From Chrysophaeum taylorii (taxonomy: Eukaryota > Sar > Pelagophyceae > Pelagomonadales > Pelagomonadaceae): 59,938 bases of DNA. The position numbers were made by a program, and so were the translations under genes. Shown here one piece after another: positions 18,931 through 50,967 of this stretch (within the stretch, counting starts at the first letter, position 1; each line of letters begins with the position of its first letter). The notes under the pieces are model-generated. The model was not told where the DNA came from, ran no database searches, and saw only the letters and a list, made by a program, of their open reading frames with translations. The stretch lies in NCBI GenBank assembly GCA_029834535.1, contig JAQMWT010000599.1, positions 1 through 59,938 of the forward strand, given 5' to 3'.

Positions 18931-18982
18931 CCGCCGAAATTTGCGTTTTGAAACAGCCGTGAGCAGGCGAGGGGACGAGGAG

Positions 18983-21900
18983 ATGGCATCAAGCACCCGC
19001 GAGGATATCGTCGCCGCGACCCTCGAGGCCGCGCGCATGATCGCGACCGAGGGGCTCGGCGAGAACCATCCCGCGCACGGCTTTTTGTTCATCATCGGCA
19101 ACGCGACCGAGCTTCTCTCGCTTGATCCGGAACTCCCTTTCGCGCAGCCCGAGTTTTCAGTCTGTTCGAAATACGGCATCTTCCCCAAAGAATTCGACCG
19201 CCGCCGCGATCGCCATATTTTGATTGAAAAATGCTCCCAGACCGACGACGAAAAGCGGGCCCTCCAAGCCCTCTGCAAAGAAGACGGCGCGATCGTCGTA
19301 GACGGCGTATCGGGCCAGGTCTGCTGCGGGGGGTTTGTGAATCGCGACCTTACTACGCCTTATGGCAGGGGCGCGCGCACCAAAGCGGCCTCAGCGATCG
19401 CGAAAAATGCGGATTGCATCTCTATCAAGGCCTCACAAGACATATGCAGCACGCGCACGAACCCGGTAGCACCGGATGCACACTTCGAAGTGTTCCGGCA
19501 CAGCTACGATCCCCAAAAATTCGCTGTGGTGGAGAAGGCGCCTCGGTCAGCCAGCGAGACTGCACCTCCGTCGCTTGAGTCGCAGCTGCGCCCACTCTCG
19601 TTTAAAGCCGAACTCCAGTGGCATGTCGATCAATACCTCAACGGCACGCGCGAATGGATATTCAATATACTCATTTCCTGGATTCGCAAACCCAACGACT
19701 CGCGATGCTGCGTGTTGCTCGCCGGACCGGGCTTTGGTAAGACTGCCATCGTCGCCCGGCTGTGTACGCTGCTTGGAGACGATGTTCTTATCGCTGTTCA
19801 CCTGGTCCGTTACAACAACGCCGGCAAGCGAGACCCGTGCCGCGTAATCACGTCGCTCGCCTACCAAATCGCGCAAGTGCTGCCGGCGTACCGCAAACTA
19901 CTCGATGAGGTGCTCCGGGCCGGAAGTTGCGACCTGAGCGATATCGCGCAGCTGGTCGACTGCCTGCTCCTCGAGCCACTCGCCACCATCGAACTTCAAC
20001 AACAAAGGTCGCCTGCTCATCGTGATCGACGCGCTCGACGAGGCCGAGCACGCGACGAAGAACGACCTCCTGAATCTCATCGCGCGTGAATTCCCCAAGC
20101 TCCCGCCTTGGGTCGCGGTACTCGTCACCTCTCGACCAGAGCTCACCGTGAAAACCAGATTGGCTACCCTTCGACCTAAATTCCTCGACTCTGAGGAGAA
20201 CGCCGAGGAGTGCGCCGTGGACGTCCGCCGGTTTCTCCGAGCCATCCTCGCTCCGGTTGTCGGGCCCGAGCGCCTCAAAGACGCCATCAACACCGCTGCC
20301 GTCAAGTCGCAGGGTCTTTTCTTGTACCTCTACTGGCTCCGAAAACGCCTCGAAGACGAGCCCCACGCTGATATCGAGGCACTCCCCGACGGCCTCGCCG
20401 GCGAGTACCTAGCCCAATTTACTCGCGTCTTTTCCGGCGATCTTTCGGTCGACTGCCGACACGTCCTCGGAGCCATCCTCGTCGCTCCTGACCCACCGCA
20501 CATGAAAAGTACGTTGCCGGGTCTGAGCGGCGTCCCCGGATGCAAGGCAATACTTGAGACACTGTCGCAACTCTTTCCCGTGCGCGACGACGATTGCGTC
20601 CATGTCTTCCACAAGTCAATCGCTGACTGGCTAACGGGGGAGCACCCATATGTCCACCGCTCTGACGAGGATCCGTACTTCATCGACAGTGTCGCTGCTC
20701 ACCATCGTGCCGCGGCCGCGTGCGTGGCCGCGCTTCTTCCCAAACTCGAGGCACCGAGGAACGTCAACGAGAGCGACGCGCACGCGGCGGCAATGATTCG
20801 CGCGGAGTGCAGCGGTACCGGTGACGACCTTTTGGCTCCAGATGATTATGCTGTGCGATGGGCGATCACGCATCTCGTCGCGGCGAAATTGCACAATGTC
20901 GCGTTGGCGCTGCTGTGCTCGTTACGCTTCGTGACATTGCGATTCGAGGCGGGCCAGATGTTCGACCTTATCGCCGACTCAACCAAAGTACTGGGAGCAG
21001 AGGCGACTCTCTTGCATCGGGCTCTGGTCCTTTCGCAAAACCACGTGCGAGTTTCTGGGGGTGGCGCGATCCTCGCTGAACAGCTCTGGCAGCGCGTGCT
21101 CGAGCCGGCTGAGAACTCGCGTGCGATGTCCGTTTTGCGATTAGGGCGAGACGCGAGGCAGATGGTTTCGAGTATGCGACCCTGTATGACGGCGCGTCAC
21201 GCGAGCCTCACGCCGGCTAATACCCCACTCCAGTGTGTTCTCGAGGGCCACAAGAGTGGTGTGGTTGGTGTGACGGCATTTAAGACGAGCGACGGCGAAC
21301 CGCGGCTGGCGAGCTGCTCCCGTGACAGGACGGTGCGCGTGTGGGACCCTAAATCGGGCCGTGAACTGTTGAAGCTCGAAGGGAACATAGATTCGGTGAA
21401 TCAGGTGGTGGCTTTTGAGACAAGCGACGGCGCCAGGCTGTTGGCGATCTATTCTCTCAACGAGAATCTGCGCGTCTGGGAACCGAATGCAGGCGTCGAA
21501 CTCCTCAAAATCGCGGGACACACTTATTTGTCGGGCGTGACGGCGTTCAAAATGAACGACACCACGTGCCTCGCGAGCTGCTCTCTTTCTACAGGGTTGC
21601 GCTTTCTAGACCTGACCACAGGCTGCCAACTCCGCAATCACGTGATGCGGTACCGCAATTTCCGCGGTAGTACGCATCGTGTAGTTTGGTTCAAGATGAA
21701 CGACGTCGTGTACTTCGCGAGCTCCGCACACGACCAGACTGTTCATGTCTGGAACCTGATCGAGGCATGCGAATTGGTATGTCTCAAGGGTCACCAGGGT
21801 ACGGTGAAGAGCGTCGTGGCATTCAAGGCGAACAATGGCCCGCGGCTGGCGAGCGGCTCTGAAGACAAAACGGTGCGCGTCTGGAACCCGATCGATGGCT

Positions 21901-23129
21901 GCGAACTCAAAAAACTCGAGGGCCACCAGGATCGGGTGAACAGTGTGGCGGCTTTTTTATTGAGCGATGGCACGTGGTTGCTGGCGAGTGGTTCTGACGA
22001 CAGCACGGTGCGTGTCTGGAACCCGTTTGAAGGCCACCAACTCAATAAGCTCGAGGGCCACGATAGTGGGGTGTGTGGCCTGGTGGCGTTCGAGGCGAGC
22101 AAAGGCGTGCTTCGGCTGGCGAGCTGCTCAATGGACGGTACGGTACGCGTTTGGGACCCGATCGCGAGCGGCCGAACGTCTGAGCTCGAGACCCACGAAG
22201 GTTCAGTGCGTGGTCTGGCGGCGTTCTACACGAGGGACGGCGAGCCGCGGCTGGCGAGCTGCTCAGAGGACAAGACGGTGCGCGTATGGGATCCGAGCTC
22301 TCGCCGCGAACTCCAGAGACTTGAGGGTCATCGTAGTGTGATCAGTGGCATCGTGGCATTCAAAATGAATGATGTGGTATACCTCGCGAGCTGCTCCTTT
22401 GACAATTCGGTGCGCGTGTGGGACTTGACCACGGGCCGTGAATTCTGCAAGCTCTATGACCCAGAGGCGCCGTGTTGCCTAACGCCCTTCGAGATGAACG
22501 ATAAAATGTACCTCGCAATTGGTTCGAACAATGGGAGGCTTTTCGTGTGGGGACTCACCGAAAAACGCGTACGTTGCAGACTTTGTGGCCCCAACCCTCT
22601 GGAGGGGGTGCGTGGCGTTGCGGCATTCGATATGAATGGCGAGGTGCGCCTCGCGAGCTGCCTCTTTGATGAGACGGTGCGCGTCTGGGACCCGGCCACA
22701 GGTGACCAACTCCAAATTCCTGACGCTCTCCAGATTCCCAAGCACCGTCCTTTGATGTACTGGAATTATGTGCTTGGCATGGTGGCTTTTAAAGTGAACG
22801 ACGCTGCGCGCCTCGCGAGCTGCTCCTTCGACCGTACGGTGCGCATCTGGGACCCGGCCACAGCGCGCCAACTGCACAAACTCGAAGGCCACCAGCGGTG
22901 GGTTTTGAGCGTGGTAGCCTTCGAGGCGACCAACAAGCCCCCGATGGTGGCGAGTTCGTCCGAAGACAAGACAGTTCGCTTATGGGACCCGATCGCCGGT
23001 GGTGCAGCACTATTCGTGCTTCCCGTGGATAGCGTAGTGCAGTGCATGGCCGTGATGAATGCGACAGACCAGGTGTGCGCTTTTGGCCACGCAAGCGGCA
23101 TGATATCGTATTGGGACGTAAGACTCTAA
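18983..23129 (+). CDS. DAC/DisA_N-like domain + NACHT ATPase + 14 WD40 blades (one frameshift)
   Basis: This is a large STAND-type signalling ATPase. The first frame opens at 18,941, but Met at 18,983 (GAGATGGC) fits the domain start better. Residues 15-170 resemble diadenylate-cyclase (DisA_N) domains: ATEG, then GFLFIIGNATEL, EDGAIVVDG (the DGA motif, 19,283) and GARTKAASAIAK where cyclases have a G(A/T)RHxAA motif. NACHT follows: P-loop AGPGFGKT (19,721-19,744), Walker B LLIVIDALDEA (20,013-20,045) and VTSRPE. A helical linker and 14 WD40 repeats (from about 21,230, SxDxTVRVWDP motif) could form two seven-bladed propellers. One extra base near 19,991 shifts the frame just before Walker B. 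The DAC part may sense a nucleotide, the NACHT oligomerise and the propellers detect a ligand; this is inference. No effector domain is visible. Confidence 0.8.
21230..23126 (+). repeat. 14 WD40 repeats in the NACHT protein
   Basis: The repeats recur every 40-47 codons, with consensus LASCSxDxTVRVWDP...G.EL.KLEGH. Repeats 5-8 and 12-13 are the most alike. Repeats 2, 3, 10 and 14 have degenerate strands (for example LRFLDL or LFVWGL instead of VRVWD). Fourteen blades fit two seven-bladed propellers. Confidence 0.85.
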
Positions 23130-29760: not shown

Positions 29761-29779
29761 GTCCTAGAACGCCTCGCGG

Positions 29780-30155
29780 GAGGACGGCGCCTAACACTTT
29801 TGCTCCCTGCGGCGGCCCCGGCCGTCCCGGAGTGAGACGGTGCCTGCTCGCCTCCCGGGCTGGCCGGTTAGCACCCGGAAAAAAAGTCCGCAGTCTGGGA
29901 ATCATGGGGTTCGCTCGGTTGGGCGGCAGAACGCGACGGACAGGTCGATTGTTCGTGGATCAACACGTTTGCGGCCTGCGAGGGGTTTTTGCACGACCTC
30001 GCACAAGACCGCGGTCCGCAGTGGCGGTCCGTCATCAACGAGTCCTCGTCCCTCGCCTCTGCCCAAACTGCGTGATTTTCCTCTGTGATTCCGGATCGGC
30101 TCCTGCCTGTCCGGCCTGGCTCCCATGCTCGGGAGAGGTCTGAAGTTAGTTAGTT
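29780..30155 (+). repeat. Dispersed repeat R1, copy 1
   Basis: About 376 bp here are nearly identical to 50,203-50,584. Both start GGAGGACGGCGCCTAACAC and end GGTCTGAAGTTAGTTAGT. Its first ~100 bp (GCTCGCCTCCCGGGC, GGCCGGTTAGCACCCGG) are also related to modules at about 57,352-57,465 and 59,430-59,500. No significant coding frame is present. It could be a SINE-like or solo-terminal element; no tRNA promoter boxes were found. Confidence 0.75.
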
Positions 30156-30523: not shown

Positions 30524-33500
30524 TTACGCAATCGCTGTTGCGAACAGCTTGGCCCGGAGGTAAGAGTCTTGTTCTCGCTCGCCGTCGAGAGCGCCCCAGT
30601 CAAAAAAAGGAACGTGAACGACGTTCCAGCCAAGCCGCCGCAACAGTCGGGACTTGAAGCGCGTTGAGCCGCTTTGAACCGTCGTTCTTTTGAGATAGTG
30701 GGACGGCCCGTCGACTTCCACAGCACGTTTGGTGTCGGGTTGAGCCATGTCGAGCGACAATCCCTCTTCGGTCACGTGCTCGAAGACGTGCGTCCAGCCA
30801 ACTCGGTCGAGCGCGGTCGCAACGTCGCGTTGGAGTTGGGATGGTGATGGGTCCTGTCGTTGAAGCGCTTCCTGGATCGCCTTTCGGTGCTTTGATGATA
30901 GCGGGCTCAGGCGGTCGGGCCACTCAAGATTTGAGTGCAACGAGGCTAAGTGGAACTGGGAAAGGCCACGATCATCGAGAGCATCGAGGTCTGTCACGAC
31001 GATGTAGGCGAGTTCGGCGAAAAAATCGGGGTCCTTTTTCCAGTCGGCGCAGGCAAATGCCCACGCTGTGTTCGCGAGCTCCTGAAGATTAAATTCGCCA
31101 AGCCGCGACCGGGCCGCCAGGACAATCGCGTCGAAGAGCTGAGGCACCTCAATGCCCGCCGTGGCAAACGCCCAAGCCGTGTTGGCGAGGCCCTGCGGAT
31201 TGAACTCGCCAAGCCACGACCGGGCCGCGAGGGCAATCGCGTCGAAGAGCTGAGGTGCCTCGATGCCCGCCGTCGCGAACGCCCACGCCGTGTTGGCGAG
31301 GCCCTGCGGACTGAACTCTTTCAGCCGCGAAGGAGCCGCGCCGGCGATCGCCGCGAAGAGCTGAGGTGCCTCGATACCCGCCGTCGCGAACGCCCACGCC
31401 GTGTTGGCGAGGCCCTGCGGACTGAACTCTTTCAGCCGCGAAGGAGCCGCGCCGGCGATCGCCGCGAAGAGCTGAGGTGCCTCGACGCGCGCCGTCGCGA
31501 ACGCCCACGCCGTGTTGGCGAGGTTCTGCGAGTTGAACTTGCCCAGCAGCGAAGGAGCCGCGCCGGCGATCGCCGCGAAGAGCTGAGGTGCCTCGATGCC
31601 CACTGTCGCGAAAGCCCACGTTGTGTTGGCGAGGTCCTGCGGATTAAACTCGTCAAGCCGCGAAGGAGCCGCGTCAGCGATCGCCGCGAAGAGCCGAGGT
31701 GCCTCGATGCCCGCCGTCGCGAACGCCCAAACCGTGTTGGAGAGGTCCTGCGGATTGAACTCGCCCAGCCGCGAAGGAGCCGCGCCGGCGATCGCCGCGA
31801 AGAGCCGAGGCGCCTCGATGCCCGCCGTCGCGAAGGCCCATGCCGTGTTGGCGAGGTCCTGCGGATTAAACTCGTCAAGCCGCGAAGGAGCCGCGTCAGC
31901 GATCGCCGCGAAGAGCCGAGGTGCTTCGATGCCCACCGTCGCGAACGCCCACGCCGTGTTGGAGAGGCCCTGCGGATTGAACTCTTTCAGCCGCGAAGGA
32001 GCCGCGCCGGCGATCGCCGCGAAGAGCTGAGTTGCCTCGATACCCGCCGTCGCGAACGCCCACGCCGTGTTGGCGAGGTTCTGCGAGTTGAACTCGCCCA
32101 GCCGCGAAGGAGCCGCGCCGGCGATCGCCGCGAAGAGCTGAGGTGCCTCGATGCCCGCTGTCGCGAAAGCCCACGTCGTGTTGGCGAGGCCCTGCGGACT
32201 GAACTCGCGCAGCCGCGAAGGAGCCGCGCCAGCGATCGCCGCAAAGAGCCGAGGTGCCTCGATGCCCGCCGTCGCGAACGCCCACGCCACGTTAGCGAGC
32301 GCCTGCGGATCGAACTCTGTCAGCCGCGAAGGAGCCGCGCCGGCAATCGCCGCGAAGAGCTGAGGTGCCTCGATACCCGCCGTCGCGAACGCCCACGCCG
32401 TGTTGGCGAGGCCCTGCGGACTGAACTCTTTCAGCCGCGAAGGAGCCGCGCCGGCAATCGCCGCGAAGAGCTGAGGTGCCTCGATGCCCGCCGTCGCGAA
32501 CGCCCACGCCGTGTTGGCGAGGCCCTGCGGACTGAACTCTTTCAGCCGCGATGAAGCCGCGCCGGCGATCGCCGCGAAGAGCTGAGGTGCCTCGATGCGC
32601 GCCGTCGCGAACGCCCACGCCGTGTTGGCGAGGCTCTGAGGACTGAACTCGCCAAGCCGCGATGAAGCCGCGCCGGCGATCGCCGCGAAGAGTTGAGGTG
32701 CATCGATGCGCGCCGTCGCGAAGGCCCACGCGGTGTTGGCGAGCTCCTGGGGATTGAACTCGCCAAGCCGCGATGAAGCCGTGCCGGCGATCGCCGCGAA
32801 GAGTTGAGGTGCCTCGATGCGCGCCGTCGCGAAGGCCCACGCCGTGTTGGCGAGGTTCTGCGGATTGAACTTGCCCAGCAGCGAAGGAGCCGTGCCGGCG
32901 ATCGCCGCGAAGAGTTGAGGTGCCTCGACGCGCGCCGTCGCGAAGGCCCACGCCGTATTGGCAAGGTTCTGCGGATCGAACTCCTTCAGCCGCGAAGGAG
33001 CCGCGCCGGCAATCGCCGCGAAGAGCTGAGGTGCCTCGATGCCCGCCGTCGCGAACGCCCACGCCGTGTTGGCGAGGCCCTGCGGACTGAACTCTTTCAG
33101 CCGCGAAGGAGCCGCGCCGGCGATCGCCGCGAAGAGCTGAGGTGCCTCGATGCGCGCCGTCGCGAACGCCCACGCCGTGTTGGCGAGGTTCTGCGAGTTG
33201 AACTCTTTCAGCCGCGAAGGAGCCGCGCCGGCGATCGCCGCGAAGAGCTTAGGTGCCTCGACGCGCGCCGTCGCGAACGCCCACGCCGTGTTGGCGAGGC
33301 CCTGCGGACTGAACTCTTTCAGCCGCGATGAAGCCGCGTCGGCGATCGCCGCGAAGAACCGAGGTGCCTCGATGCGCGCCGTCGCGAACGCCCACGCCGT
33401 GTTGGCGAGGCCCTGCGGACTGAACTCTTTCAGCCGCGAAGGAGCCGCGTCGGCGATCGCCGCGAAGAGCCGAGGTGCCTCGATGCCCGCCGTCGCAAAG

Positions 33501-34324
33501 GCCCACGCCGCGTTGGCGAGGGCCTGCGCGTCGAACTCTCGAATGCAGCGCTGACAGGCGTCTGCGAGGGCAATCACACGGCGATCACCTCGCACGTCGC
33601 GATTTCGCCCGCCAAACTTGGCAACACGGTGCGCGGCAGTCGACAAGTTCTGAGCGCTGAATTCGTCGCCTCGAGCCGCAAAGAGTGAGAGGATCGTCTC
33701 GGGAGTTGCGCCGCGACCCGTCATTAGCTTTCCCCACTGTATTTGTTGCTTTCCCAACTGTATTTGTTGCCATCGCGGTGCCTCGGCTGCACTGCTACCT
33801 CGCGCGCGGCTCGCGTCGGCGCCGCGACAGTCAACGTATCGGGCGTTGCCGCCGCGCCGCGTCCCACCCCCTCGTCGCGCGGGTGACTGAGAACGGTGCG
33901 AGTGTCGACCGTCGTCGTACCACTGGTTGTCGTTCGCGGCATGCGGTCGTCTTCTTGGCGGCGACTGAGGGCGGTACGACAAGTCTCGACCGTCGCGCCG
34001 CTGATCCTCGCGGCGCGAGTCCTCGTCGTCGTCAGCAAACCGTCGTCGTATCGGGCGCCGGTCTCGAATGTCGCCCCGCCGGTCGTCGCGCCCCTGGTGG
34101 TGGTCTTCGTATCTCCGCGACAGGTTTCGCTTTTGGTGGTGGCGCTCGTCGGCGCGTCGCCTCTGGAAAAAATTCGTGATCGTCGTTTCCCCGTTCCGTG
34201 GACGGGGGGTATCATCGCCGCGCCCCCAGTCCACTGTCTGCTGTCGACGACGGGGCGACGGCTCGTCGACTCGCCAATTCCGATCATCGTCGTGGCGCCA
34301 TCTCTTTGTTCCGCGTCGATCCAT
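30524..34324 (-). CDS. RAP-domain protein with 22 TAWAFAT (37-residue) repeats
   Basis: This is an intact, intron-free ORF of 1,266 codons. Residues 1-210 are Arg/Asp/Ser-rich and probably disordered, with a small QQIQLGK/QQIQWGK duplication. About 250-1,070 holds 22 near-identical 37-residue helical repeats (LANTAWAFATAGIEAPQLF, then AAIAGAAPSRLKEFSPQ), plus one degenerate unit at each end. The C-terminus is a RAP domain: KRAVEVDGPSHYLKR, then TRFKSRLLRRLGWNVVHVPF. RAP proteins with helical repeats (FASTK, OPR-like) usually bind organelle RNA and affect its stability or translation; that role is likely, but the target is unknown. No clear transit peptide is visible. Met at 34,324 is the first in frame, just downstream of a GAAT microsatellite. 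The repeats are far more uniform than is usual for divergent OPR proteins. Confidence 0.88.
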   Translation of the reverse strand: MDRRGTKRWRHDDDRNWRVDEPSPRRRQQTVDWGRGDDTPRPRNGETTITNFFQRRRADERHHQKRNLSRRYEDHHQGRDDRRGDIRDRRPIRRRFADDDEDSRREDQRRDGRDLSYRPQSPPRRRPHAANDNQWYDDGRHSHRSQSPARRGGGTRRGGNARYVDCRGADASRARGSSAAEAPRWQQIQLGKQQIQWGKLMTGRGATPETILSLFAARGDEFSAQNLSTAAHRVAKFGGRNRDVRGDRRVIALADACQRCIREFDAQALANAAWAFATAGIEAPRLFAAIADAAPSRLKEFSPQGLANTAWAFATARIEAPRFFAAIADAASSRLKEFSPQGLANTAWAFATARVEAPKLFAAIAGAAPSRLKEFNSQNLANTAWAFATARIEAPQLFAAIAGAAPSRLKEFSPQGLANTAWAFATAGIEAPQLFAAIAGAAPSRLKEFDPQNLANTAWAFATARVEAPQLFAAIAGTAPSLLGKFNPQNLANTAWAFATARIEAPQLFAAIAGTASSRLGEFNPQELANTAWAFATARIDAPQLFAAIAGAASSRLGEFSPQSLANTAWAFATARIEAPQLFAAIAGAASSRLKEFSPQGLANTAWAFATAGIEAPQLFAAIAGAAPSRLKEFSPQGLANTAWAFATAGIEAPQLFAAIAGAAPSRLTEFDPQALANVAWAFATAGIEAPRLFAAIAGAAPSRLREFSPQGLANTTWAFATAGIEAPQLFAAIAGAAPSRLGEFNSQNLANTAWAFATAGIEATQLFAAIAGAAPSRLKEFNPQGLSNTAWAFATVGIEAPRLFAAIADAAPSRLDEFNPQDLANTAWAFATAGIEAPRLFAAIAGAAPSRLGEFNPQDLSNTVWAFATAGIEAPRLFAAIADAAPSRLDEFNPQDLANTTWAFATVGIEAPQLFAAIAGAAPSLLGKFNSQNLANTAWAFATARVEAPQLFAAIAGAAPSRLKEFSPQGLANTAWAFATAGIEAPQLFAAIAGAAPSRLKEFSPQGLANTAWAFATAGIEAPQLFDAIALAARSWLGEFNPQGLANTAWAFATAGIEVPQLFDAIVLAARSRLGEFNLQELANTAWAFACADWKKDPDFFAELAYIVVTDLDALDDRGLSQFHLASLHSNLEWPDRLSPLSSKHRKAIQEALQRQDPSPSQLQRDVATALDRVGWTHVFEHVTEEGLSLDMAQPDTKRAVEVDGPSHYLKRTTVQSGSTRFKSRLLRRLGWNVVHVPFFDWGALDGEREQDSYLRAKLFATAIA
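31060..33560 (-). repeat. Tandem 111-bp coding repeats of the RAP gene
   Basis: About 22 direct repeats of 111 bp, in frame with the 37-residue units. Changes are concentrated at a few codons (R/G at position 13, Q/R at 18, G/D at 25, and K/G/D with S/N/D near the end). Several neighbours are identical over more than 100 bp, showing recent duplication or gene conversion. Confidence 0.9.
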
Positions 34325-50202: not shown

Positions 50203-50584
50203 GGAGGACGGCGCCTAACACGCTTGCTCCCTGCGGCGGCCCCGGCCGTCCCGGAGTGAGACGGTGCCTGCTCGCCTCCCGGGCTGGCCGGTTAGCACCC
50301 GGAAAAAAAGTCCGCAGTCTGGGAATCATGGGGTTCGCTCGGTTGGGCAGAACGCGACGGACAGGTCGATTGTTCGTGGACCAACACGTCCGCGGCCTGC
50401 GAGGGGTTTTTGCACAACTTCGCACAAGACCGCGGTCCGCAGTGGCGGTCCACCATCAATAAGTCCGTCCTCTCGTCCCTCGCCTCTGGCCCCAACTGCG
50501 CGATTTTCCTCTGTGATTCCGCACCGGCTCCTGCCGGTCCGGCTTGGCTCCTATGCTCGGGAGAGGTCTGAAGTTAGTTAGGTA
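50203..50584 (+). repeat. Dispersed repeat R1, copy 2
   Basis: It is nearly identical to 29,780-30,155 from GGAGGACGGCGCCTAACACG to GGTCTGAAGTTAGTTAG. It is directly followed by a copia RT fragment. Confidence 0.75.
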
Positions 50585-50589
50585 GTTAG

Positions 50590-50967
50590 TATGGCGTCGA
50601 TTATTTTGCCACTTATTCCCCAGTTGCTACGGCAACTAAGAGTATTTTTGTGTCGTGTCGCTCATCTCAATTGGGAACTCGTCAAACTTGATATCAAGAA
50701 TGCGTTCACATAAGCTACATTTTCTGAAAACGTTTACGCTTGGCCCCCCGCAGAGGGGTTTCCTCTTCAACAACCACCATCGGGCTATCACGTTTTGAAA
50801 CTCAAACGATCATGGTATGGTACTCATCGAGCTAGTCGTAGCTGGAATATCTTCCTTCATAAGATTCTTACTGACTTTGGCTTTGTGGCAACTGACGCTG
50901 ATCGCTGCTTATATTTGTTTTACGTTCAAATGCAGGTTGTCATCATGTTGATTGTGATTGTAGATGA
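50590..50967 (+). pseudogene. Ty1/copia RT fragment (second copy of 9,018-9,390)
   Basis: It is very close to 9,018-9,390 (GGCGTCGATTATTTTGCCAC, TGGCCCCCCGCAGAGGG, CATCGGGCTATCACGTTTTG). It keeps an 18-bp piece (AAGATTCTTACTGACTTTGG region) missing from the first copy. It is cut at GTAGATGA by the Helitron-related unit. Confidence 0.8.

Follow-up and report, generated by a model that had tools for sequence, protein, structure and literature searches.

Bacterial diadenylate cyclase (DAC) domains, such as those of DisA and CdaA/DacA (PF02457), work as face-to-face pairs. In fungi, multigene families carry a nucleotide-related N-terminal domain (RelA_SpoT or PNP_UDP) before a NACHT part and WD40 parts with variable repeats (PMC4986451). 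Among bacterial anti-phage systems, DS-2 is a cyclic oligonucleotide-based anti-phage signaling system (CBASS) with a DAC, in which two catalytic-residue changes each abolish defense, and DS-8 is a NACHT with a metallophosphatase, both parts of which are needed (PMC13092281). Here, we describe a gene at positions 18983 to 23129 of a 59,938-nucleotide stretch of DNA (contig JAQMWT010000599.1, hereafter the window) in which a DAC-fold domain precedes a NACHT-type ATPase and WD40 repeats. The host is Chrysophaeum taylorii, a pelagophyte alga, in agreement with the eukaryotic origin stated, and the stramenopile origin guessed at, in an earlier annotation of the window made from its sequence (the original prediction).

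The window family shares with DisA and CdaA/DacA the fold, the DGA position and the active-site Arg and Ser, and differs from them in lacking the His of the RHR motif, in that the window copy scores under the Pfam cut-off, and in being fused to eukaryotic receptors. It has the order of parts and the multigene character of the fungal proteins; however, its N-terminal fold is another one and the WD repeats of the window protein are not near-identical as in some fungal proteins (PMC4986451), since by a rough count of nine WD-type ends the mean identity between repeats is 38%. DS-2 and DS-8 place a DAC, and a NACHT with a nucleotide-acting domain, in defense, but they are separate bacterial systems and the available text of that paper describes no DAC-NACHT fusion (PMC13092281). 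The leucine-rich repeats (LRRs) and Roc-COR parts around a metagenome relative (L051/L053) resemble the ROCO candidate immune receptors of brown algae (PMC11378527).

A literature search for DAC, NACHT and WD40 together returned nothing, most subscription papers being beyond its reach. Titles and abstract starts of the literature searched contained no case of eukaryotic or catalytically dead DACs, and neither did those from searches on nucleotide-centric conflict systems and on algal NACHT/WD40 receptors; the names of prokaryotic DAC-derived sensor domains (DACNV, DACNG) gave nothing related. The term DisA is absent from the text available to us of the paper on fungal NLR-like proteins (PMC4986451), diadenylate from that of the brown-algal ROCO receptors (PMC11378527) and both from that on eukaryotic CD-NTase and STING (PMC10732462). 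The parts and the general plan, that of NOD-like receptors (NLRs), are known, while the literature searched yielded neither a DAC fold on receptors of this kind nor one forming a multigene family in a eukaryote.

The DAC-fold domain and its receptor family

The window gene (CTAYLR_009936 in NCBI, P0016) is carried by two open frames (18941-20089 and 20022-23129). The order proposed in the original prediction, a DAC-like domain followed by a NACHT P-loop with Walker B and by WD40 repeats, is the one observed, and its coordinates hold. The parts are:

18983..19549, + strand: DAC-fold N-terminal domain, residues 1-189 (Pfam, family profile against the PDB, AlphaFold, fold comparison, motif table), with DGA at residues 101-103, RTK at 132-134 replacing RHR, and SQD at 151-153
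19037..19039, + strand: start codon of NCBI model CTAYLR_009936 (model rebuilt exactly)
19643..19987, + strand: first part of the NACHT-type ATPase, NPHP3_N (Pfam PF24883, residues 221-335, 45.9 bits)
19724-19744, + strand: P-loop GPGFGKT
19888..19951, + strand: 64-nt GT-AG intron of the NCBI model
19995..20000, + strand: frame change, with one base more than in the paralog on contig C396 (blastn alignment)
20013..20042, + strand: Walker B LLIVIDALDE
20043..21224, + strand: remainder of NACHT, then the sequence before the repeats (alignment with paralogs)
21225..23129, + strand: 14 WD40 repeats (about 21225-23126) and stop codon (WD40 PF00400, E 3.8e-68; repeats counted by eye)

On the window sequence, the DAC model PF02457 matches the N-terminal part at E 0.0087 and 16.1 bits, short of its curated cut-off of 27, and NCBIfam gives similarly weak DacZ and DisA matches at the same place; taken alone, the Pfam match is no more than a lead, and a PDB search with the single domain sequence gave no hits. 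The assignment is carried by the family. We aligned 12 complete C. taylorii domains with three metagenome proteins (A1, 15 rows) and added nine more rows (A2, 24 rows). PF02457 matches 19 of these 24 rows at E ≤ 0.1, in the same place as in the window, and a stand-alone relative on contig C418 scores above the cut-off (30.2 bits). Searched against the PDB, the A1 profile found six sequences at E ≤ 10 (0.0055 to 1.7), all of them DisA or diadenylate cyclase, and the four alignments printed span the DGA and RHR motifs. The AlphaFold-predicted fold of the window-family domain also matches DAC structures. By sequence profile and predicted fold, the DAC assignment is more than chance. The DAC-like domain of the original prediction stands for residues 1-189, and the outcome that would have refuted it did not occur: these residues match DAC domains through the family profile, the window sequence being weak alone, and through the predicted fold. 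We file the domain as a DAC-fold relative and not as a diadenylate cyclase.

The rest of the window protein is like that of a receptor of the STAND type (signal transduction ATPases with numerous domains). NPHP3_N exceeds its cut-off of 24.8, whereas the NACHT model PF05729 reaches only 15 bits, below its own, and the ATPase has both Walker A and Walker B. The C-terminal superstructure repeats are WD40; Pfam resolves nine separate stretches in the second frame, while 14 repeats, the number originally given, can be counted by eye in the translation, and these would be enough for two seven-bladed propellers. In the AlphaFold model the first helix of the DAC-fold domain covers residues 7-23, and similarity to C396 starts at 18997. 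The ATG at 18983 fits the paralogs better than the NCBI start at 19037, because the latter would cut into this helix.

In the assembly (70.8 Mb, 697 contigs; described as 71 Mb on 702 contigs, with gene calls from RNA-seq and homology, for an alga of a group that can form harmful blooms; PMC10366177), a search with residues 1-189 gave 23 matches at E ≤ 1, namely the 12 complete domains plus, at 6 further places, 11 pieces. Leaving out C418, the complete domains make up 11 receptor-type or short copies spread over 8 contigs. Besides the window gene, class I includes four paralogs with DAC, NACHT and WD40 in a single open frame, on C396 (CTAYLR_008101, 1414 codons), C454 (two, of 1396 and 1394 codons) and C165 (1298 codons), and the NCBI models P0015, P0017, P0018 and P0020 agree with these fusions. 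Four uninterrupted frames answer the concern that the DAC-like part might be a separate gene; in the window assembly the frame is broken by an extra base. PADLOC, run on three proteins, matched P0015 alone (model HEAT-ARM_XIII, in the WD40 part), which we take as a repeat-type match.

Class II comprises five copies (C454c, C454d, C575, C600 and C309) with a common further region of about 470 residues behind the DAC-fold domain. This region had no PDB match and no Pfam match except one at E 0.22, and its AlphaFold model, from 5 rows, was not usable (pLDDT, the predicted local distance difference test, 40.8); a CHAT-like protease, guessed at by eye, was dropped. The class II NCBI models P0019 (C454) and P0001 (CTAYLR_006224, C575) end in LRRs, and in C600 a stop lies between its two frames. 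The C309 frame, which begins near 612866 (L039/L040), has 3406 codons. It joins to the DAC-fold domain an MLKL_N-like stretch (E 1.7e-5, 24.8 bits, under the cut-off of 27), a first set of ankyrin repeats, a protein kinase and, after a weak TPR match, NACHT with numerous further ankyrin repeats. Contig C677 holds a short copy. The C418 protein (CTAYLR_008461, 279 aa) has no other domain found in it, is 35% identical to the window domain (E 4e-21) and is named "DAC domain-containing" in UniProt.

Outside C. taylorii, the domain precedes a GTPase in P0004 and occurs in tandem in P0007, as read from its sequence. Contig PAHJ01000138.1 (L051/L053) has a 2307-codon frame with Tudor/Agenet, DAC-fold, kinase and LRR matches, and Roc and COR-A matches in a later frame. 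It is titled a Geminicoccus metagenome-assembled genome (MAG), but we read it from its domain content as probably a eukaryotic contig mis-binned into a bacterial MAG. The partners of the DAC-fold domain are thus NACHT-WD40, LRR and kinase-NACHT-ankyrin, with ROCO-type parts in the metagenome relative.

There is also a wider NACHT repertoire in this genome, as 11 of its 16 NACHT matches are on contigs without a DAC-fold match (C391, C27, C324, C569, C435, C534, C489, C304, C84, C538 and C73).

Active-site motifs and selection

The window copy and C396 read DGA, RTK and SQD at the three motif places, so that DGA is intact and RHR is not. In the other nine receptor-type or short copies the DGA place begins with Asp (seven), Glu (one) or His (one), followed by N-A; hence, its Asp is kept in 9 of 11 copies and its Gly is replaced by N in 9 of 11. 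At the RHR place these nine have RT followed by T, R, Q or G, so that RTx is found in all 11 (the window and its 10 closest complete paralogs), with the first Arg kept and the His lost throughout. The active-site Ser is kept in 24 of 24 rows. C418 has DGA, RHR and SES. The 12 metagenome rows all have DGA; their second motif is RDR in three, RNQ in one and GHR in one, and RH plus K or Q in the remaining seven. The second domain of P0007, which is outside the motif table, has GS at the DGA place and keeps RHR.

In a tree of 25 rows, the 11 receptor-type or short copies fall together (88/98) and join C418 (99/98), a topology by which a single loss of the RHR His in their ancestor is probable. The one bacterial row sits on a very long branch and we make no claim as to the donor of the domain.

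Over the 55 pairs of the 11 copies, the Nei-Gojobori ratio of nonsynonymous to synonymous substitution rates (dN/dS) in the DAC-fold domain has a median of 0.35 and a maximum of 0.55, and the domain is therefore kept as a protein, under purifying selection. Between the window copy and C396, identity is 95.2% for DAC, 91.9% for NACHT (in the window copy, taken after the frame break only) and 64.6% for WD40, where the proportions of nonsynonymous and synonymous differences (pN/pS) in one block are 0.312/0.339. In the nine other class I pairs (five copies, the repeats of C165 being partial) the ranges are 68-80%, 72-86% and 50-77%. A more divergent sensing face would fit an NLR-type receptor.

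What the DAC-fold domain may do

Alongside these computed features (DAC fold, N-terminal place, partners, purifying selection and loss of the RHR His in the receptor clade) we set the reading that we prefer, with a probability of roughly 45%: a multigene family of NLR-like STAND receptors with a divergent DAC-fold N-terminal module, which most likely binds an adenine nucleotide as a switch, without making c-di-AMP. The missing His in the window and its 10 closest paralogs makes c-di-AMP synthesis less likely than the original wording implied. Binding is favored over synthesis because the His is lost while the Arg and Ser, positions that contact phosphate in DisA, are retained, and 9 of the 11 copies retain the Asp. 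That the domain also precedes kinases and a GTPase, which are plain outputs, is a further reason to prefer binding or switching over catalysis. At rest, the NACHT part would hold the protein closed, and the more divergent WD40 part would be the sensing face. Ligand binding would let NACHT exchange its nucleotide and oligomerize, bringing together the DAC-fold domains, which would bind c-di-AMP or ATP as a regulatory or dimerization switch. The stand-alone C418 relative, with both DGA and RHR, could be an enzyme or a partner. The GTPase of P0004 and the kinase with LRRs behind the domain are likely output partners. A nucleotide-sensing or nucleotide-signaling immune protein, as originally suggested, is a fair inference from the architecture alone.

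Several points weigh against a binding switch. The window copy and C396 retain an intact DGA. In the other class I pairs, the divergence of WD40 does not always greatly exceed that of DAC, and the contrast between the window copy and C396 could be due to gene conversion. What NACHT-WD40 proteins carry at the N terminus is usually an effector, in some cases a nucleotide enzyme (PMC4986451). An active effector, in which NACHT oligomerization pairs the DAC-fold domains and switches on a cyclic or linear nucleotide messenger, alone or with C418, would suit the N-terminal position of the domain, the pairing by which DACs work and the DGA that is intact in the window copy, in C396 and C418, and in all 12 metagenome rows. 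It has parallels in the RelA_SpoT and PNP_UDP enzymes N-terminal to NACHT-WD40 in fungi (PMC4986451) and in the need of DS-2 for a DAC with intact catalytic residues (PMC13092281). We consider it unlikely, given the loss of the RHR His in 11 of 11 receptor-type or short copies and of the DGA Gly in 9 of 11. We likewise doubt that the DAC fold is a scaffold or a decoy, that is, an oligomerization surface or a bait for a microbial factor acting on DACs or c-di-AMP, with no nucleotide bound. Motif erosion and the many unlike partners would agree with such a role, but a pure surface would not need the Ser, the Arg and mostly the Asp of the nucleotide site, which are kept.

A bolder and rather improbable reading is a eukaryotic innate immunity built on the DAC fold and separate from cGAS-STING, in which C418 would make a c-di-AMP-type signal and an expanded set of NLR, LRR and ROCO receptors with an eroded DAC would read it, be switched by it, or read the c-di-AMP of co-living bacteria. 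Eukaryotic cyclic dinucleotide immunity is known through cGAS-like enzymes and STING, to which the DAC fold is unrelated. Placed on NLR-like receptors of a eukaryote, this fold would give prokaryotes and eukaryotic receptors a second shared nucleotide-signaling module, and it points to a possible new route by which such signals are read or used in a eukaryote. It also adds a member from a photosynthetic stramenopile to the N-terminal NLR domains with ties to prokaryotic nucleotide signaling, such as the fungal RelA_SpoT and PNP_UDP (PMC4986451). At about 185 residues, the domain is a small defined unit, directly testable for nucleotide binding or synthesis.

Frame break, other searches and neighboring features

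Compared with C396, the window copy carries a single additional base near 19998, in the stretch from Walker A to Walker B. The NCBI model sidesteps it with the intron at 19888-19951, the splicing of which reproduces P0016 exactly, deletes about 21 residues kept in the paralogs and shifts about 15 residues to another frame; this intron is probably a gene-prediction workaround. We regard a sequencing error and a young pseudogene as about equally likely, and a real intron as unlikely. That the window copy is a young pseudogene in an otherwise working family, which concerns this gene and is compatible with the other explanations, is a tentative reading with odds somewhat short of even. The position of the extra base, the need for an intron that removes conserved residues and the domain pieces at 6 further places, by which copies are seen to decay, speak for it; however, the base could be a sequencing error, the frame past the break is open for more than 1000 codons, and pN/pS against C396 past the break is 0.145/0.248.

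Contamination was rejected for the window, as the 11 receptor-type or short copies are spread over 8 contigs and, wherever a partner was seen, it is of the NACHT-WD40, LRR or kinase-ankyrin kind, and six NCBI models of C. taylorii carry such fusions. Bacterial genomes have been obtained from the same culture (PMC10366177). The strongest DAC match of the assembly, on contig C301 (L032, 133 bits), is a CdaA-type diadenylate cyclase with a CdaA_N membrane part, its gene directly behind that of a pterin-binding enzyme, in bacterial order. We took C301 as a bacterial contig left in the assembly and did not use its cyclase as an algal one.

A scan of species genomes in GTDB with A4, a set of nine rows that are stand-alone or from metagenomes, gave 79 pattern matches, of which one was a relative (PAHJ01000138.1), and viral contigs gave 55 pattern matches and no relatives; the patterns are narrow, so that absence from prokaryotes or viruses does not follow. 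The STING and Mab-21 families had no match in the C. taylorii genome, but control genomes were equally silent, which makes the result uninformative.

Elsewhere in the window, a 1266-codon frame on the - strand (30524-34324) has repeats of about 36 residues and a terminal RAP domain (E 2.7e-18), also matches FAST_1 and DUF1601, and resembles RNA-binding organelle proteins of the repeat-RAP type. A dispersed repeat of about 400 bases occurs at 29779-30155 and at 50203-50590; both places share 89-90% identity with sequence upstream of the C396 paralog (L035 1070-1478).
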